Origin: Adineta ricciae
Lineage: Eukaryota > Rotifera > Eurotatoria > Adinetida > Adinetidae
DNA: 64,000 bases
Reading direction: 5' to 3'
NCBI GenBank assembly: GCA_905250025.1
Contig: CAJNOJ010000105.1
Coordinates: 62,001 to 126,000 of the forward strand
In this document: positions 5,598 to 60,408 of the stretch, in pieces
Layout of the letters: each line of letters opens with the position of its first letter
Position numbering within the stretch: position 1 is the first letter of the stretch
Translations under genes and position numbers: made by a program
Notes under the pieces: generated by a model
Told to the model about the DNA's origin: nothing
Databases searched by the model: none
What the model saw: the letters and a program-made list of their open reading frames with translations, nothing else

Positions 5598-7451
5598 TCA
5601 CCAAGGTTCACATTCTTTCAGTTTGATTTCTACGGCAGGGACCTTGTTTCTATCTATTGTAACGTCAATGATTTTGAATGCTGAATATGGTAGTACTAGA
5701 ACTTCTTCTTCGTCGGGATACAATGATATATTTGTGATATCTAATGCCGTTCTCGGATTTCGTATCTCATATATGCATAATGTACTCATTCGGGAACTTG
5801 TGTCACGTTTATTACCATGGAATCCCGTGGCGACATTCAAACGTTTGGACGTTGACGCAAAGGATTTAGTTAAAATTCGCGTGCCTCGCTTGTACTGCGT
5901 AACATCATTCTCGGTAAGCATCATGCCGCGATACGTCGTTCCAAGATACGAGAGACTATCGAAATGTGGATGTCGAGCGATAATTCCGATGAAATACGCT
6001 AAACTAAGGTTCTCTGGAGCAGCTAAATTCTCAAGCTCTAATTGTGCCAAATCGGTATTGAGTGCCGAAGAAAAGCCTGTATCAGTTGTATAGGCTTTTA
6101 ATAAATAGTTCGGATCTTTTTCCTTGATTGTCACATCAAAAAATTGTCGGATTAAATCAATGCTCTGAACATTGCGCAGACTCTTTTCCAGATAATTTTG
6201 TTTGACGAAGAGAACTAGGCGATCGAATTGTGGATCGTTGCCGTAAGTTTCTAATGATTTCAGATACTCATGTGCTTGAAAATCTGCATCATACGAAGAA
6301 CGAATCCATTCCATGACATCACTGACAAAACGCGTCTTCGTCAGACGTCGTCGATGAGGCATTTGCTTTATCTCGTCACTTTTAGCTTCCTCAAGTACGG
6401 CTAAACGAGATTTGTTTTTCGTTGAACCAGAAGCTGTAGGGAGAGCAGTCGAACCATTCGGTTCCATTCGATTCATACTTTTCAGTGACATTGATTGCAG
6501 ATAGTTATGAACAACATCGATGTTGTTAGCACGTTGCATACGAGCGGAAGCATTCGTACCGACAGCTAAAACAGAATGATCGATTCGTTTGACTAAAACA
6601 TTCGATACAATGAACTATCGAAATTTTGTCTTGCGCAAATAGAGAAAGAACTGAAAGTGTTTTCAATCATCTCATACCATGCGAAGCGCTTACCTTTATT
6701 TTCTACCGTGGAATGTCTTTGTAATATACTCGCTTCGAGCGGTTTCCTATTTCTTGTCGCTTCTTCTTCATCTTTTGTGATACGTGCAGACAACATAGGA
6801 CCAACACCTGAAGTTCATGAGAAAAGAATCTGATTTTTTTTATTCATACATATACATGTATATGTACCGAAATCAACTTTTCGTCGAAAACCATCTGACG
6901 AACTGTCACTGCCGTCATCGGGTATGTCTTCCACGATTTCATCACCAATGAGGTCATGGACCGAATCTAAAATATTGAAATTAATTCAGAAATATTCGTT
7001 TTTTATCGGTATTACTTTTTCCTGATGATAATTTTTTCCTGAAAAAAAAAAGACAAGGAATATATATATACTAACGTCATACGCAAACCCCTACCGTTCC
7101 TGAATGACGCGCGCCTTATACATTTCATCACATGGATGATCCCAGGATGACGTACCCGTATCAAAATTAAAATAATATAGTTCTCCATTTTCCTCTTGAC
7201 ACGGTTTCCAACCTGATGGTAGCGGTTTAAGGATACCTTCTCTAGCCAGCCAAAGTAAATGGGACTCCTAAAAAGTTGGATGCAAAATACTGATCACTCG
7301 GTGTTCCGGCGTGTAAACTTACCTTGTCTGGATCAATACCAATATAAATGGCGTATTCACGGATTTCTTCTGAAGTTGGTTCGTAGTTTTCGTCTATATT
7401 TTCGCAGAGAACTGTTTGTTTATTTATTTTATATCCTTTAGATGGTAACAT
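5598..7451 (-). CDS. CEP164-type WW module fused to R-S-E ADP-ribosyltransferase
   Basis: Six exons (7451-7323, 7267-7095, 7038-7016, 6966-6868, 6807-6694, 6565-5598) join in frame to 501 aa; the third is a 23-nt microexon. Residues 17-101 match the CEP164 N-terminus: [38 protein letters not shown], then GELYYFNF and [11 protein letters not shown] (WW domain, W63 and W85), then [12 protein letters not shown]. An acidic linker follows. The C-terminal 310 residues are an arginine-type mono-ADP-ribosyltransferase: TTYRGM (Arg392), KSFASTS (417-419) and [10 protein letters not shown] (ExE, 465-467) form the R-S-E triad used to bind NAD+. Known: the CEP164 WW region binds TTBK2 at ciliary distal appendages. 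Inferred: the transferase could be targeted to cilia or centrioles. No signal peptide is seen, so it is probably cytosolic. Confidence 0.87.
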
Positions 7452-12170: not shown

Positions 12171-13396
12171 ATGCAAAGTGAAATGGGAGAGGATACGGTA
12201 ATTTTCAATTTCATCCATTTTCTAGATGAAGTGAACTACATTAATGTTGCTCTTGTTTTACATTTCGTTTTTTTCCATTGGCATTTCTCAAGTCATAGCA
12301 AAAGAGAATGGTTTGCTTTTTTTTTGCGCAAACTTGAACACTTTAGTTGTTTACTTGTAGAAGTAGCTCCGTATGGATTGTTAAGTTCAGATTATATTCA
12401 TGCTCGAATAGCACGCCAAGTAATTGACGAGACAACCACCTGTACTGGTAACTGCGGCTGCACATGTACCTGTACATGCACCACGACGACAACTTCTTGT
12501 AGGCAAATCGTATTTCTAGAATCGACAGTAAAGCATTTCTATTTCTTTAAAATATAGCTACGAGTACCAGCAGTACAAGCAGTACTAGCTCTACAACAAG
12601 CACAACAGCGACCACCAGTACCAGCTCCACTTCAAGCACCTCAAGTACTAGTTCGACATCAAGTAGTAGCACTAGTACTACTAGTACAACCTCGACTACG
12701 ACGTCCACAACATCAACAAGTTCAACATCATCCACCAGCACTTCTTCGACGAGTACTACTAGTAGTACTTCTACGTCGACCACGTCCGCAACCACAAGTA
12801 CTTCATCAACAAGCACTACTTCCACTACAAGCGAGACAACATCAACTAGTAGCACGACAAGTAGTACAAGTACTTCGTCCACTAGCAGTACTTCGAGCAC
12901 ATCCAGCACGTCAACTAGCAGCACTTCAAGTACAAGCAGTACTACGTCAACTACATCAACAACAACTACTACCGCAACTACGACGTCAACAACAAGCGCG
13001 ACAACAAGCACGTCGACAACGTCAACAACCACATCGGCAACAACTACTACGACGACCACAGCAACCACCACTACCTCTACCACAAGTACCACCACTACCT
13101 CTACCACAAGTACCACCACTACCTCTACCACAAGTACCACCACTACCTCTACCACAAGTACCACAACTACAACCACGGTCGCAGTTGTAGCGGATAAAAC
13201 CGGTATAATCGTTGGAGCTGTCCTTGGTGGAGTAGCTTTTATCGCATTGGTAGCTGTTTTTATATATATTCTCATTGGATGGTTCAATCGACCGCACGTT
13301 GCACATTTACGCTCCGTTTATCAGACAAGAGTTCCCGCGCAGCGTCTCCCACCACTCCATCATTCAACTGGACAAGAGCGTATCAAATTTTTTTGA
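12171..13396 (+). CDS. Mucin-like Ser/Thr-rich single-pass membrane protein
   Basis: After a Cys/Thr-rich segment (TCTGNCGCTCTCTC), a 59-nt intron (12499-12557) leads into about 215 residues made almost only of Thr and Ser, a dense O-glycosylation substrate. Then comes DKTGIIVGAVLGGVAFIALV, a transmembrane helix, and a short basic tail (GWFNRPHVAHLRSVYQTRV). The topology is an extracellular mucin stalk with one membrane pass. Both ends are uncertain. The ORF start at 12171 does not give a clean signal peptide, so an upstream exon is likely. Unspliced, the tail stops at 13394-13396, but a GT at 13380 and the reading SLDAPLPVRDEGPR downstream hint at further splicing. AATAAA at 13655 supports a separate transcript from the next gene. 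Confidence 0.7.
13064..13159 (+). repeat. Four perfect 24-bp tandem repeats in mucin stalk
   Basis: The unit at 13064-13087 repeats without change at 13088, 13112 and 13136, each encoding eight Thr/Ser residues. Perfect identity at the DNA level points to recent slippage or unequal exchange, and copy number may vary between alleles. Confidence 0.92.
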
Positions 13397-55309: not shown

Positions 55310-58300
55310 TTAGACATGAAAACATCGTAGTAGTTTTTTTCGATATTCAAAAATGACTTTCTTGAATTGCTTTTTGTAGAATGTCGATGGTAGCACAAAG
55401 ATGGAGAATGTCAACATCGGCGGAATCAGTGCGATTAAATGTCCAATTAAAAATACCCACGAGTCGCTGACTGATTCCATACATTTTGTTACGAAAGAGA
55501 TGATCACACGAGGTATTGCGAGAATCACTAATAACAGCGGAGCAGTCAGCAGATGTTTGTGTTCACGAATTTGTTTGATCAGAAGTTTGCGAAAACTTCG
55601 GTGAGCGTGTACTTTCGCTTGTTGGTAGGTTTTTTGTGTTATTAAGATAATCGTTGAGATCAGATTGATGATAAATGGACCGAAGAAATGGAAAATATAC
55701 ATTGCGGAGTTGAACGTTTGCAATGCACGAGAATATTTTGCAATACACCACACTCGTGTGTGATCGTTATCTTCGTTTTCTTCTTCAATGAGTTCGCGAA
55801 AAAAAGCATCGTGTACCACTGTGCCTATATTGATAATCAAAACAATGACGATCATATGTTTAGCAATTTGTCGACTTTTGATCTTGTTAAACGATGGACC
55901 TTTTATAGATGTAACAGCTCGTTCGATGGCGACGCATGCGTTGAACCATTGCTCAGAGTTGATGAGAACACGTAAAAGAAAGTCAACCGAATGACATTGA
56001 ATCAATAGAAATAATTTATTGGATAGAATATCCATTTGCGAAAGGGTTAATGTCAAGAATTTCAGCGTAAAGACAATCATGATAAATAACGTTATTATAG
56101 ATGACGCGAAAAGATAAATTCCACAGCCAACTTCTTGGATAATATTGCATCTAAACGTGAGGATTGAAAGTAAGCTATTGATGAGAATAATTGTTGCGCA
56201 TATTAGCGATAATACGAGACTGAATTTGAAAATGATTGATTGATGTGTCAAAGGAGTATCTGGTCGAATGTGATAACCGAGAATAGCATCAAGTGATAGA
56301 CCGAATCCACTCGTGCGAAATTGGCATAATCCTCCATAATAGCATAATTGACAAACACATCGCGAACGCATGGGACAATCGGGGTGATCTTGAAAGCAAC
56401 GAGCACCGTTTTGACATTCACTACTTCCCGAACAGTCGTATGTCATATTATGTTGAAATTCGAAACAATTGGCCAAACGTTTTTGATTGTATGTATAGCA
56501 TAAACACATGTGAATATCATCGTAAAAACATGAAAGATTCAATGAATGATCTTGACAATGTAAATGAGAATACTTGATTTGATGAATGTAAGGTAATTGA
56601 CGTAATGTTTTATTGAACAGTTCGTTGATATGAAAACAGCGATTGGATGGTTTGATGTGTTCTGTTGTAGGTATATACAATTGGAAACTTTTGTCCATGG
56701 AAACAAGATAATATTGGTTTATATGAAGTTCAATAAACGCGATATGATATACTCTTGACCAGTATATCGTCAATGATGCCTCGTTTACTGGAGTTATGGC
56801 ATAAGTACTTGCTCTCGAATGAGTAGTGTAAAGGTCAACATAGACAAAATGAATAATTAAGTCTCGAGATAAAGAAATTCCCTTGTCAAACGAAAGAATT
56901 ATCTTTTTATCTTGGTTTTGACATCGATTGCCAGAGTAACCTTTCGAACATATGCATTTGAATGTAGACGGCAGTTCGCTGTACTCATCACTGGGAATAC
57001 ATGTCCCATTGTTTTCACATGGCGAAGATTGGCAAATAGTACTTGTAAGAAGACATCGCGAACCGAATTTCGGTAAAGGACAAACACATAGTGACCGATT
57101 AGCAGCGCTTATGCCAATGCATATTGAATCTTCCGCACATGAACAGTTATATTTAATCGTACAATCCGATCCTGTCCATCCTTTCTCACATTTACAAAAG
57201 CCGAAGTTTTCTTCGCTATTCATGTACTTGACACATTGGCCATGACGACATGCGTGTTTCGAGCAGTAATCAATATTGGCTTCACTTCGAGGAATATCAA
57301 TAACGACTGGTACGTAATGAACGGGTAAAAACGGAAATTTTATCGGGAATAAGAAACTTCCTCGATAAGCAAAAGAGAGTCTTTCAAAGATATCCACATG
57401 TATTGAATAGCCTCTTGTTTGATTCTTTGGTCGAGTAGAATACAGTAAATAGAGACGATATTTTCTTTGACAATCTCGCACCGGTAGATAATTGATTTGT
57501 TCGTACGAATGAACAATCCGCTGATAAGTATTGTCAATAAGAGAAACCACTATGACAAAGGGTATCTGCCGAGAGTTTGATGACTCGCGAAATCGAGCAA
57601 TGAAAATCAAACGTTGATTTTGATATTGGCATGCGTTTCCATAGAAATTCGGCGGGCAGAGACACGCCGGTATCGAGGCATTGCCATTCAACCAAACACG
57701 TATTTCCAGACCATGATGACAACGACCTTGGTATTCACTCGAATAGGATATTAACTGACTCTGCCGTCTCGATCTGACAAGCGGTTTTTTCTTTTCGATT
57801 AGAGAGAAATATGTCAAGCTAAGTAGTCTTCGACTTTGTAAGTACGGGCATAAGACTTTATCTATCTCATTTCGTTGTGATGAAGACAGAACTATATCAG
57901 CACAATGATCAGAGGATTCGCCCTCTTCCGAAACGACCACACAAAATTTTTCGTCATCTCCATGCAAACAATCGATTTTCCCATTACACCATTTTTCACT
58001 ACTGACACAACTCGCGTTCGTTCCCATACAATAGAAATTATCCGGAAATTCAACTTCATAATCTTTTCGGCATAAATGTTGCTCATCAGTTCCACCAAAG
58101 CAATGGACAACACCATCATTCGCTTTTTCGATGGGTAGACACATTGGCTTGTAATCATCCATTGAAATGCATAGATGGTGATTTCGTGGGCAATTCATTA
58201 ATCTTGAACGATTACAATGCAGTTCGTCTGCACCATTTGGACAATTCCAATAGTCATTACAGTGTGTATATATACTGTTACATTCCCAATATTCACAATC

Positions 58301-60034
58301 AGTTTCATCGGTATGATTCTTCCCAAAAATAGTTATTGGTAATAATTCGGTGAAACCATTACAAGTTGTTAGAAATGAAATATTTTTTCTTAGATAATTT
58401 AGCAATTGTATATTTTCCTCGTATTGATTGAATGTAATACTACCAAATGGATCAATAACATCGGGTGAAACTAACACGCCGTTATCTAAGCGAGGACAAT
58501 AAAGCATACTCTTGCTAACATTGCAAATGTGAAGATACATACCTTTGACTGGTGGAACACATAGCTGGTTATTTGATTGATTGCAAAATGTCGAATTATA
58601 GAGAAATATTTGATGATACTCTCGAAGATTTATATATATACTGGATAAATCCATGTAAACGATAAAATGTTTTCTTGGAAGGAAAAACCAAAGTTTAAGG
58701 AGATGTGTCGAACATGTTAAATTACCAATCATTATCTTCTGCTCATTAAAGTGATACACGTCATGGTAAAAAGCATTGTAACACATAAAAAACGCTAAAT
58801 CATTCTTTCCGCCGAAGATCTCCGAAAGATTTTTATGATAGACAATATAAATATGGGTAAACAACAATGGAATTGACGGGAGAAACAGCGTTTCAGGACA
58901 TTCATTTTTAATAATATTCATACACGTTCTGTGATCACAAACCTTATTGCAAGCCAGATCGGTATTTTCATAAATATGAACAAAACATTTGATTGCAGAA
59001 AAACATTCATTCGAGACCGAACTGTCTTGATTAACAAACAGGGCTTGTATTAACAAATATTTTCGTTTCTCATAACAAGAACTAGTGTACTCATTTTTTT
59101 TGCATACCAAATCTTCACATTTGAATGACATAGAAATGAAGCCGCATAGATCATTTCCAGCGTTCGATTTTCTTGCATCACTACCGTCACTACATTCGAA
59201 ATCATGTGTAACTTTATCGGCACGGAATATTTTCGGTATACAGTGTCCATTCTGGCATTGAAATTCATCTTCATTACATTTATTTAAATCAAGTTGCCAA
59301 CAATTTTCTTCATCAAAGTCACCATTGAGACAATTCAGTACGCCATCACATATTTCAGTCCAATCTAAGCAAACAGGATGCGGTCCACGGTCACAATTCA
59401 GATGAACATAACAAGTTAGTGTAGTCGGAGTATATTTATGTGCTTCATAAAATGCTTGAACCAAATGAGTAAACGATGGATATCCTGAACTTTCAACTTC
59501 CAACTGGTACTGACATTTCGGACCGAACCGTGGCCATGTACAATTATAAAAAACTTCATTCGCTAAAGCTTGATCATTGTTTGCCAAGGATAGCTCATCC
59601 ACATATGACTGATATCGTTCGATAATGTCGATCGGAGTTGACCAGATATACAATTGCAAACTTGTGACGTTGTGTTGATAAAGTTTGGCAAATGTGAAAG
59701 TTGAAGAAAGATTAGCGTTATCAATCGTCAAATTTGGTGGTAATTCACTCAAACAAAATGTTGAGAGGCCACGAAAAGGGGGATCAGCACTGTTTTCGAT
59801 CAAACGTAAACAATTGCTCGAGATTGAATTTTCTTCACTGTCGTAATCCGTATAGTAAAGATTCAGTTGTGGTATACCATCGAACGAATTTAGGAAAAGA
59901 AGAAAGAATAATAATGTTGTAAAACTCATTATTTGCAAAAGAAAATGCCATGAAAACAGAAATAATGCTGCTCCTTTTGTTTTCTCGTTGGAAAACACGA
60001 CATATGCGAAAAGTTTGCTGAGGGAAGCTACCAT
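55310..60034 (-). CDS. Giant intronless LDLR/EGF-ectodomain 7TM receptor
   Basis: One uninterrupted 1574-codon frame. A second Met at 59929 starts a better signal peptide (MSFTTLLFFLLFLNSF), so translation probably begins there. The ectodomain has LDL-receptor class A modules (CDGVLNCLNGDFDEENC, FQCQNGHCIP then FECSDGSDA, CNGKIDCLHGDDEKFC) and long unassigned stretches. EGF modules follow (CRHGQCVKYM, FCKCEKGWTGSDC, CENNGTCIPS, FKCICSKGYSGNRC, CQNGARC). The last about 300 residues are a rhodopsin-like 7TM domain (FNACVAIERAVTSIKG at the DRY position; C-terminal KKQFKKVIFEYRKKLL). It resembles LGR/relaxin-type receptors in plan but lacks leucine-rich repeats. A ligand-binding surface receptor is inferred. 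Confidence 0.9.
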   Translation of the reverse strand: MVASLSKLFAYVVFSNEKTKGAALFLFSWHFLLQIMSFTTLLFFLLFLNSFDGIPQLNLYYTDYDSEENSISSNCLRLIENSADPPFRGLSTFCLSELPPNLTIDNANLSSTFTFAKLYQHNVTSLQLYIWSTPIDIIERYQSYVDELSLANNDQALANEVFYNCTWPRFGPKCQYQLEVESSGYPSFTHLVQAFYEAHKYTPTTLTCYVHLNCDRGPHPVCLDWTEICDGVLNCLNGDFDEENCWQLDLNKCNEDEFQCQNGHCIPKIFRADKVTHDFECSDGSDARKSNAGNDLCGFISMSFKCEDLVCKKNEYTSSCYEKRKYLLIQALFVNQDSSVSNECFSAIKCFVHIYENTDLACNKVCDHRTCMNIIKNECPETLFLPSIPLLFTHIYIVYHKNLSEIFGGKNDLAFFMCYNAFYHDVYHFNEQKIMIGNLTCSTHLLKLWFFLPRKHFIVYMDLSSIYINLREYHQIFLYNSTFCNQSNNQLCVPPVKGMYLHICNVSKSMLYCPRLDNGVLVSPDVIDPFGSITFNQYEENIQLLNYLRKNISFLTTCNGFTELLPITIFGKNHTDETDCEYWECNSIYTHCNDYWNCPNGADELHCNRSRLMNCPRNHHLCISMDDYKPMCLPIEKANDGVVHCFGGTDEQHLCRKDYEVEFPDNFYCMGTNASCVSSEKWCNGKIDCLHGDDEKFCVVVSEEGESSDHCADIVLSSSQRNEIDKVLCPYLQSRRLLSLTYFSLIEKKKPLVRSRRQSQLISYSSEYQGRCHHGLEIRVWLNGNASIPACLCPPNFYGNACQYQNQRLIFIARFRESSNSRQIPFVIVVSLIDNTYQRIVHSYEQINYLPVRDCQRKYRLYLLYSTRPKNQTRGYSIHVDIFERLSFAYRGSFLFPIKFPFLPVHYVPVVIDIPRSEANIDYCSKHACRHGQCVKYMNSEENFGFCKCEKGWTGSDCTIKYNCSCAEDSICIGISAANRSLCVCPLPKFGSRCLLTSTICQSSPCENNGTCIPSDEYSELPSTFKCICSKGYSGNRCQNQDKKIILSFDKGISLSRDLIIHFVYVDLYTTHSRASTYAITPVNEASLTIYWSRVYHIAFIELHINQYYLVSMDKSFQLYIPTTEHIKPSNRCFHINELFNKTLRQLPYIHQIKYSHLHCQDHSLNLSCFYDDIHMCLCYTYNQKRLANCFEFQHNMTYDCSGSSECQNGARCFQDHPDCPMRSRCVCQLCYYGGLCQFRTSGFGLSLDAILGYHIRPDTPLTHQSIIFKFSLVLSLICATIILINSLLSILTFRCNIIQEVGCGIYLFASSIITLFIMIVFTLKFLTLTLSQMDILSNKLFLLIQCHSVDFLLRVLINSEQWFNACVAIERAVTSIKGPSFNKIKSRQIAKHMIVIVLIINIGTVVHDAFFRELIEEENEDNDHTRVWCIAKYSRALQTFNSAMYIFHFFGPFIINLISTIILITQKTYQQAKVHAHRSFRKLLIKQIREHKHLLTAPLLLVILAIPRVIISFVTKCMESVSDSWVFLIGHLIALIPPMLTFSIFVLPSTFYKKQFKKVIFEYRKKLLRCFHV

Positions 60035-60408
60035 ATGCCGATCATGATTTGCTGCTAGTTGGCAATCTTAAGCAAACTTTTTTATCTCGTTTTCAAACAT
60101 TCGTGACTATTCGACGGATGCAACAGAAGATTAATATAATTAAGAGAATTAAATCGTACTTAATTCATAAATATAAGGCTTTGAACAGAATAATAAAGAG
60201 TGCGAAGAATAACCTCGACGACAAATAGAAATAAAATATTTTAACATAAAATCAAAGATTACAAGCGCAATAGAACGAAAAGCAAAGGAAAACAAACTGT
60301 TGACAGTATAATTAGTAACACATTTATTTCTCATCATTCAAGTTTTTGATTACAAACGTAAACGTCATTTAGAATAGTTCGATTTTCTTCACAACATATT
60401 TTGACGAT
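60035..60408. other. Divergent intergenic region
   Basis: AT-rich promoter region between the giant receptor (-) and the first single-pass gene (+); no coding feature seen. Confidence 0.4.

Follow-up and report, generated by a model that had tools for sequence, protein, structure and literature searches.

Structure of the chimeric gene

In the window, a 64,000-nt stretch of Adineta ricciae DNA (C105:62001-126000 of a 130-Mb assembly, whose contigs are given C-numbers here), a gene on the minus strand joins six exons between 7451 and 5598 into 501 codons and a stop (Table 1). Its frame is open throughout, all five introns are GT-AG and the exon join phases are 0, 2, 1, 1 and 1, in agreement with an earlier note on this DNA, which had read here a CEP164-type WW module in frame with an arginine ADP-ribosyltransferase (ART) of the R-S-E type. 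Pfam and PDB matches confirmed both parts, and the six-exon frame is conserved in a second copy of the gene. Judged from the sequence, the locus is a genuine chimeric gene.

Exons 1 to 5, including the 23-nt microexon, were recovered exactly and unprompted by a simple, purpose-written gene finder that uses codon usage and generic splice weights. For exon 6 the program's choice was an acceptor at 6592, which lies 27 nt upstream of that at 6565 and is likewise in frame; in the second copy the 6592 AG reads AC and the 6565 acceptor is kept, which identifies 6565 as the conserved choice. The absence of a signal peptide, also claimed previously, was corroborated by a simple Kyte-Doolittle scan alone, in which hydropathy peaked at 0.99 over 19 aa (-0.28 near the N-terminus) and neither a hydrophobic signal peptide nor a GPI-type tail was found.

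Table 1. Parts of the chimeric gene, in positions of the window
Feature	Positions	Strand	Basis
Exon 1: start codon, then the beginning of the CEP164 N-terminal domain, aa 1-43, including Q12 (human Q11)	7323..7451	-	PDB alignment, gene finder
Exon 2: WW domain and flanks of the CEP164 N-terminal domain, aa 44-101	7095..7267	-	Pfam, PDB match
WW domain proper, aa 59-88	7133..7222	-	Pfam PF00397, E 5.9e-9
Exon 3: microexon of 23 nt that corresponds to CEP164 exon 3, in equal phase	7016..7038	-	Gene finder; kept in second copy
Exon 4: acidic linker, its end similar to CEP164 exon 4 (DDFRGKVDFG)	6868..6966	-	Sequence comparison; 111 nt in second copy (+12)
Exon 5: resembles the start of CEP164 exon 5 (GIDPSLSARIEDDE)	6694..6807	-	Sequence comparison
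Junction intron between CEP164-derived exons and ART exon, 128 nt, phase 1	6566..6693	-	Matched only in the two C105 copies
Exon 6: ankyrin remnant, ADP-ribosyltransferase and stop	5598..6565	-	Pfam; ankyrin part by paralogue comparison
Catalytic R392 codon (TYRG)	5928..5930	-	Family alignment
Catalytic S417 codon (FASTS)	5853..5855	-	Family alignment
ExE codons E465-E466-E467 (PDEEEVL)	5703..5711	-	Family alignment

Elsewhere in the window, a 1585-codon open frame on the minus strand (55313-60067) appears by eye to encode LDLa/EGF-like repeats and, after them, a C-terminal part that is seven-helix-like. A plus-strand frame (12551-13393) consists, also by eye, mostly of Ser/Thr repeats, with a membrane-span-like stretch after them.

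The CEP164-derived exons and their parents

Residues 6-106 of the protein align without a gap (101 residues) to the N-terminal domain of CEP164 (PDB 7nwj and 7o3b, E 1.6e-37), and the chimera is 59% identical to this domain over 96 aa. A full-length CEP164, whose presence elsewhere in the genome the earlier note had proposed to check, was found at three loci, C149 and C236 (755 aa each) and C32 (655 aa), all as gene models; a pair with a third copy would fit the pattern of a bdelloid. Exon 1 measures 129 nt in the chimera, C149 and C236, and 132 nt at C32, and exon 2 measures 173 nt in the chimera and at all three CEP164 loci. The parental exon 3, with 218 nt at C149 and C236 and 47 nt at C32, has the same phase as the microexon of the chimera, implying that the latter is a shrunken CEP164 exon 3, and exons 4 and 5 are recognisable by their sequence as CEP164 exons 4 and 5. 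Everything beyond the start of the parental exon 5 is missing from the chimera, where the ART exon is found instead. At C149, C236 and C32, exon 5 is followed by charged exons that look coiled-coil-like by eye; this coiled-coil and C-terminal part, which in human CEP164 serves localisation to the mother centriole, is absent from the six-exon model of the chimera.

In the WW region the chimera and C149 are 85% identical, and comparisons of either with C32 give 77% and 76%. The closer relationship to C149 suggests that the front half left the C149 lineage after its split from C32. When the WW exons were compared with those of the C149 gene, about 46 of 59 synonymous sites differed while Ka was 0.106; heavy synonymous divergence together with a low Ka indicates an old front half retained by selection.

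A second copy of the fusion

A second gene with all six exons and every splice site lies on the same strand at C105:38654-40509. With both flanks counted in, identity between the two copies is 94.4% across 7.2 kb and 93.1% across another 0.7 kb. Their introns differ in length by 3, 7, 4, 1 and 0 nt, and the only length change in a coding exon is the 12-nt difference in exon 4 (Table 1). Three of the five introns thus changed by lengths not divisible by three, so that a frame read through them would be broken; the spliced frame is intact. Ka/Ks between the copies is 0.34 overall, 0.31 in the WW exons and 0.15 in the ART, values below 1 on either side of the join that imply purifying selection on both parts; the CEP164 linker exons 3-5 (0.49) and the ankyrin remnant (0.72) evolved faster. 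Since the two copies share the join and both flanks, an assembly error at this point was rejected, and an origin of the fusion in such an error or in a chance join appears very unlikely.

The CEP164 copies at C149 and C236 are equally diverged (94.3% identity over 7.1 kb). The two C105 copies, being as far apart as this pair, may therefore be alleles placed end to end in the contig rather than a true tandem.

The ART exon and its family

Pfam PF01129 (NAD:arginine ART) matches residues 391-488 with 24.3 bits, just above its cut-off of 22.3; four paralogue models score 29.0, 28.6, 26.6 and 64.4 bits, the last being the C38 model, which holds a second ART stretch. With a threshold of E 0.001, at least 116 genomic matches to the exon were obtained (matches rather than genes, of which the best candidates were scored), and 30 loci were defined among them. 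The catalytic R and S are present in 30 of 30 aligned family loci and ExE in 29, the exception being L030, which lacks the second E beside an undetermined base. This R-S-ExE signature suggests that the enzyme is arginine-specific. The earlier note had called the transferase complete, which holds for the catalytic signature but not for the ankyrin repeat ahead of it: such a repeat opens the ART exon in the four nearest paralogues (C20, C38, C980 and C507), while in the window protein it has no Pfam match and looks partly deleted. The second copy is 93% identical to the ART exon of the window, and these four paralogues 52-59%.

A profile built from nine of the 30 loci retrieved mostly ankyrins from the PDB. 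When the profile was restricted to the ART part (11 of the 30), the nearest structure was the bacterial ART Vis (4xzj, E 1.3e-13), other bacterial ARTs being weaker. Single-sequence structure prediction of the exon gave a mean pLDDT of 31, from which the fold is not readable. The genome also contains a further type of ART (95 matches, partly overlapping the 116), and two ankyrin-ART frames, L029 and L032 (G000:C344), have by eye a hydrophobic, membrane-span-like C-terminal stretch unlike anything in the chimera.

Other front ends in the same clade

In a tree of 28 of the 30 loci, the window gene, its copy, C38, C20, C980 and C507 form a clade with 100/100 support; the tree is midpoint-rooted, has nine open forks and long-branch warnings outside this clade, and leaves out L022, whose frame begins past the ankyrin part, and L030, whose E motif is disrupted. 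A close examination of upstream sequence covered the six clade loci. Gene models place a phase-1 acceptor at the entry to the ankyrin-ART exon in the window gene, its copy, C38, C980 and C507; at C20 the model reads through, and the phase-1 entry comes from reading the sequence. An in-frame Met upstream of the ankyrin part is lacking in the CEP164 pair, C980 and C507, occurs at C20 only inside the kinase and is found once at C38. Among the 24 ankyrin-ART loci outside the clade, the ankyrin start was recognised in 20, every one of which has an in-frame Met upstream, so related ankyrin-ART genes may stand alone.

At C20 a casein kinase 1 (CK1; Pfam Pkinase, E 2.6e-23) and an ankyrin-ART share a single uninterrupted open frame. 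Between them lies a 48-nt GT-AG stretch in phase 1, which the gene finder took as coding and which manual reading suggests is a short intron, the frame being open either way. The CK1 of this chimera has NFG in place of the DFG found in the two parents read, C17 and C33. Near these CK1 genes, at about 2.5 kb and on the opposite strand, there are ankyrin-only matches to the ankyrin-ART exon (G000:C17:648361-648657 and C33:72313-72612). At C507, LIM domains (E 4.2e-21) precede a GTAAGT donor, and donor and acceptor are both in phase 1. Left unspliced, the LIM frame stops right past the donor (SGK stop) and could end there, so this fusion is graded as probable only; no close parent of the LIM part was found, the best other match reaching 46-50% over short stretches.

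The remaining two loci are ambiguous. At C38 (L044, G000:C38:13201-18200) the model runs from another ART through a TIR domain to the ankyrin-ART, but the joining stretch is longer and an in-frame Met upstream of the acceptor offers a possible independent start. If the model holds, two kinds of NAD-using enzyme may lie in one protein at this locus. At C980 two PDZ domains lie upstream in a frame with its own stop before the ART exon, and because the tail of this frame is similar to that of relatives on C51 and C78, a separate PDZ gene is equally likely. We therefore rejected a view of all five front ends (CEP164, CK1, LIM, TIR and PDZ) as certain fusions, given the PDZ tail and stop and, for TIR, the upstream Met and the preceding ART. 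The CEP164 and CK1 fusions are firm at the sequence level, the LIM fusion is probable, and those of TIR and PDZ are ambiguous. The CEP164 chimera is thus not a one-off, as a CK1 and probably a LIM front end stand on the same kind of ankyrin-ART exon within its clade.

The junction intron

Genome matches to the junction intron (E up to 1) were found only in the two C105 copies. In the parental CEP164, a candidate phase-1 acceptor lies 159 nt from the start of the modelled exon 5, with no donor above a score of 4 there; it is plausible that a native CEP164 intron was reused at the join. On the other side, the ART exon of the window is one open frame of 338 codons counted from the preceding stop, with no Met until inside the ankyrin remnant. 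At L017, a distant family locus, a strong acceptor of equal phase lies a short way upstream of the Met, and one idea is that a trans-splice acceptor was reused as a cis acceptor at the join; a query with a presumed bdelloid spliced-leader sequence gave no matches in the genome, a result of no weight either way.

The predicted TTBK-binding surface

Human CEP164 binds the kinase TTBK2 with its N-terminal domain; the contact residues are I8, Q11, V13, Y73, F75, F77, S82 and W84, and those on the TTBK2 side F1074, R1076, P1077, P1078 and G1080 (available text of PMC8752127). Human residue numbers were placed on the chimera through the alignment to the PDB domain, and all eight of the contacts listed in that text are identical in the chimera, as are W62, P59, H86 and P87; R93 is replaced by K, as in the parents.

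One TTBK kinase is encoded at C10 (phmmer E 5.1e-85 against TTBK1 chains, 5e-84 against TTBK2 chains), marginally closer to TTBK1, although sequence alone does not tell which of the two it is, and another at C48, by eye a close relative. Near the end of both tails, as read here, lies HLPKPPPGIPSQNAR, identical in 15 of 15 residues while its DNA differs at 6 of 45 positions and the surrounding tails have diverged. Its LPKPPPG fits the spacing F1074-x-R1076-P1077-P1078-x-G1080 given for human TTBK2 in the text of PMC8752127 at hand, with two important positions changed, F to L and R to K. Conserved contact residues facing a conserved ligand suggest that the CEP164 module of the chimera would bind TTBK.

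The ciliary or centriolar docking role proposed in the earlier note stands only in part. The piece retained is the one that binds TTBK2 in human, but the part needed to reach the centriole is absent, and human CEP164 truncated at residue 525 cannot localise to the mother centriole, according to the portion of PMC8752127 available. The function suggested by the retained piece is therefore better described as TTBK capture, with no implication of residence at the centriole.

Discussion

We consider it fairly probable that the locus is a chimeric gene encoding a TTBK-addressed, cytosolic, arginine-type ART that is old and selected and counts among several chimeras of its clade. In the mechanism that we propose, exons 1 to 5 of a duplicated CEP164 gene would have been joined through a phase-1 intron to a terminal ankyrin-ART exon, whose frame, as read from its sequence, has no start codon of its own ahead of the ankyrin remnant. 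The CEP164 module would bind the proline-rich tail motif LPKPPPG of TTBK, the chimera would compete with full-length CEP164 for the kinase, and it might ADP-ribosylate TTBK or its neighbours, so that ciliogenesis or microtubule regulation would be damped or re-routed. Substitution patterns suggest that the fusion is old and was retained by selection, and the presence of several chimeras with differing front ends suggests that the enzyme is re-addressed across the clade by front-end exchange. A broader reading, which we offer tentatively and hold somewhat less probable than its opposite, is that the startless ankyrin-ART terminal exon is a reusable effector cassette placed through a shared phase-1 entry behind unrelated front ends: the TTBK-binding module of CEP164, a kinase-dead CK1, LIM, and possibly ART-TIR and PDZ. 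Such an address-labelled ART repertoire would include the CEP164 member, which would direct NAD-dependent modification at the ciliogenesis-initiating kinase TTBK.

The join could also be an in silico artefact that merged two adjacent genes, a truncated duplicate of CEP164 and an independent ART gene 128 nt downstream. The single 338-codon frame of the ART exon and the in-frame Met at all 20 recognised ankyrin starts outside the clade speak for such a separation. It is nevertheless highly improbable: the five upstream exons run free of stops to a good donor in both copies, the ART frame of the window has no Met before the ankyrin remnant, both copies retain the 6565 acceptor together with its phase, both sides of the join have Ka/Ks values under 1, and the CK1 relative at C20 holds both parts in one uninterrupted frame. 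A different view accepts the fusion and gives it another purpose, the CEP164 module, the dead CK1, LIM and TIR being baits for parasite effectors and the ART an immune executor. Plant NLR proteins with integrated host domains that serve as decoys are the model for it. The change from DFG to NFG in the CK1 chimera, set against DFG in the two parents read, suggests a binding rather than a catalytic role, and the many ART matches in the genome (the overlapping sets of 116 and 95, which are not gene counts) and the TIR domain upstream of the C38 clade member are in line with the same view. We know of no pathogen effector or immune induction for chimeras of this kind, and the contacts for TTBK, a physiological ligand, are kept instead of drifting; we regard the decoy explanation as unlikely, though the least so of the three alternatives.

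The ART could also be inactive baggage in a natural dominant-negative protein that acts only by sequestering TTBK from CEP164. The overexpressed N-terminal region of CEP164 is indeed dominant-negative on cilia, probably by competing for TTBK2 (PMC8752127, in its available text). With the ART being the most constrained part of the protein (Ka/Ks 0.15) and its R-S-ExE residues kept, this explanation is decidedly improbable.

If the reading of a TTBK-addressed ART is true, ADP-ribosylation would have a direct link to the CEP164-TTBK switch in cilium formation. The chimera would then be, in a natural and selected form, what cell biologists overexpress as a dominant-negative CEP164 fragment. The clade would offer an example, in an animal, of exon shuffling giving an effector exon new addresses. 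For the bdelloid Adineta vaga, the text available of two reports describes enrichment of ADP-ribosylation terms, among genes over-expressed in desiccation-related conditions (PMC10809525) and among genes under-expressed in spaceflight (PMC12220480). No description of a CEP164-ART architecture was found in the accessible portions of the openly licensed PMC literature on rotifer or bdelloid ADP-ribosylation, on CEP164 together with ART and on exon shuffling.

Compared with known PF01129 ARTs, for which the bacterial Vis (4xzj) is the nearest solved structure by profile, the chimera has the R-S-ExE signature and a Pfam score just over the cut-off, and differs by its CEP164 front end, its ankyrin remnant and the lack of any hydrophobic signal or tail in our scan. 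This last trait also sets it apart from the ecto-ARTs, which are secreted or GPI-anchored. Tankyrase, an ankyrin-SAM-PARP protein with a PARP domain of the H-Y-E type, likewise carries ankyrin repeats ahead of an ADP-ribosyl-transferring domain, whereas the chimera has an R-S-E ART, a short and decayed ankyrin part and no SAM among its Pfam matches. Bacterial polymorphic toxin systems, as presented in the available part of PMC3482391, resemble the clade in placing varied front ends before an exchangeable C-terminal enzyme domain; the chimera differs from them in being eukaryotic and spliced and in carrying a CEP164 front end, and no secretion or delivery part was seen in it. CEP164 itself (7nwj, 7o3b) shares with the chimera an ungapped N-terminal domain and identical listed TTBK2 contacts, and the chimera departs from it in having exon 3 shrunk to 23 nt and an ART exon in place of all that follows the start of exon 5.
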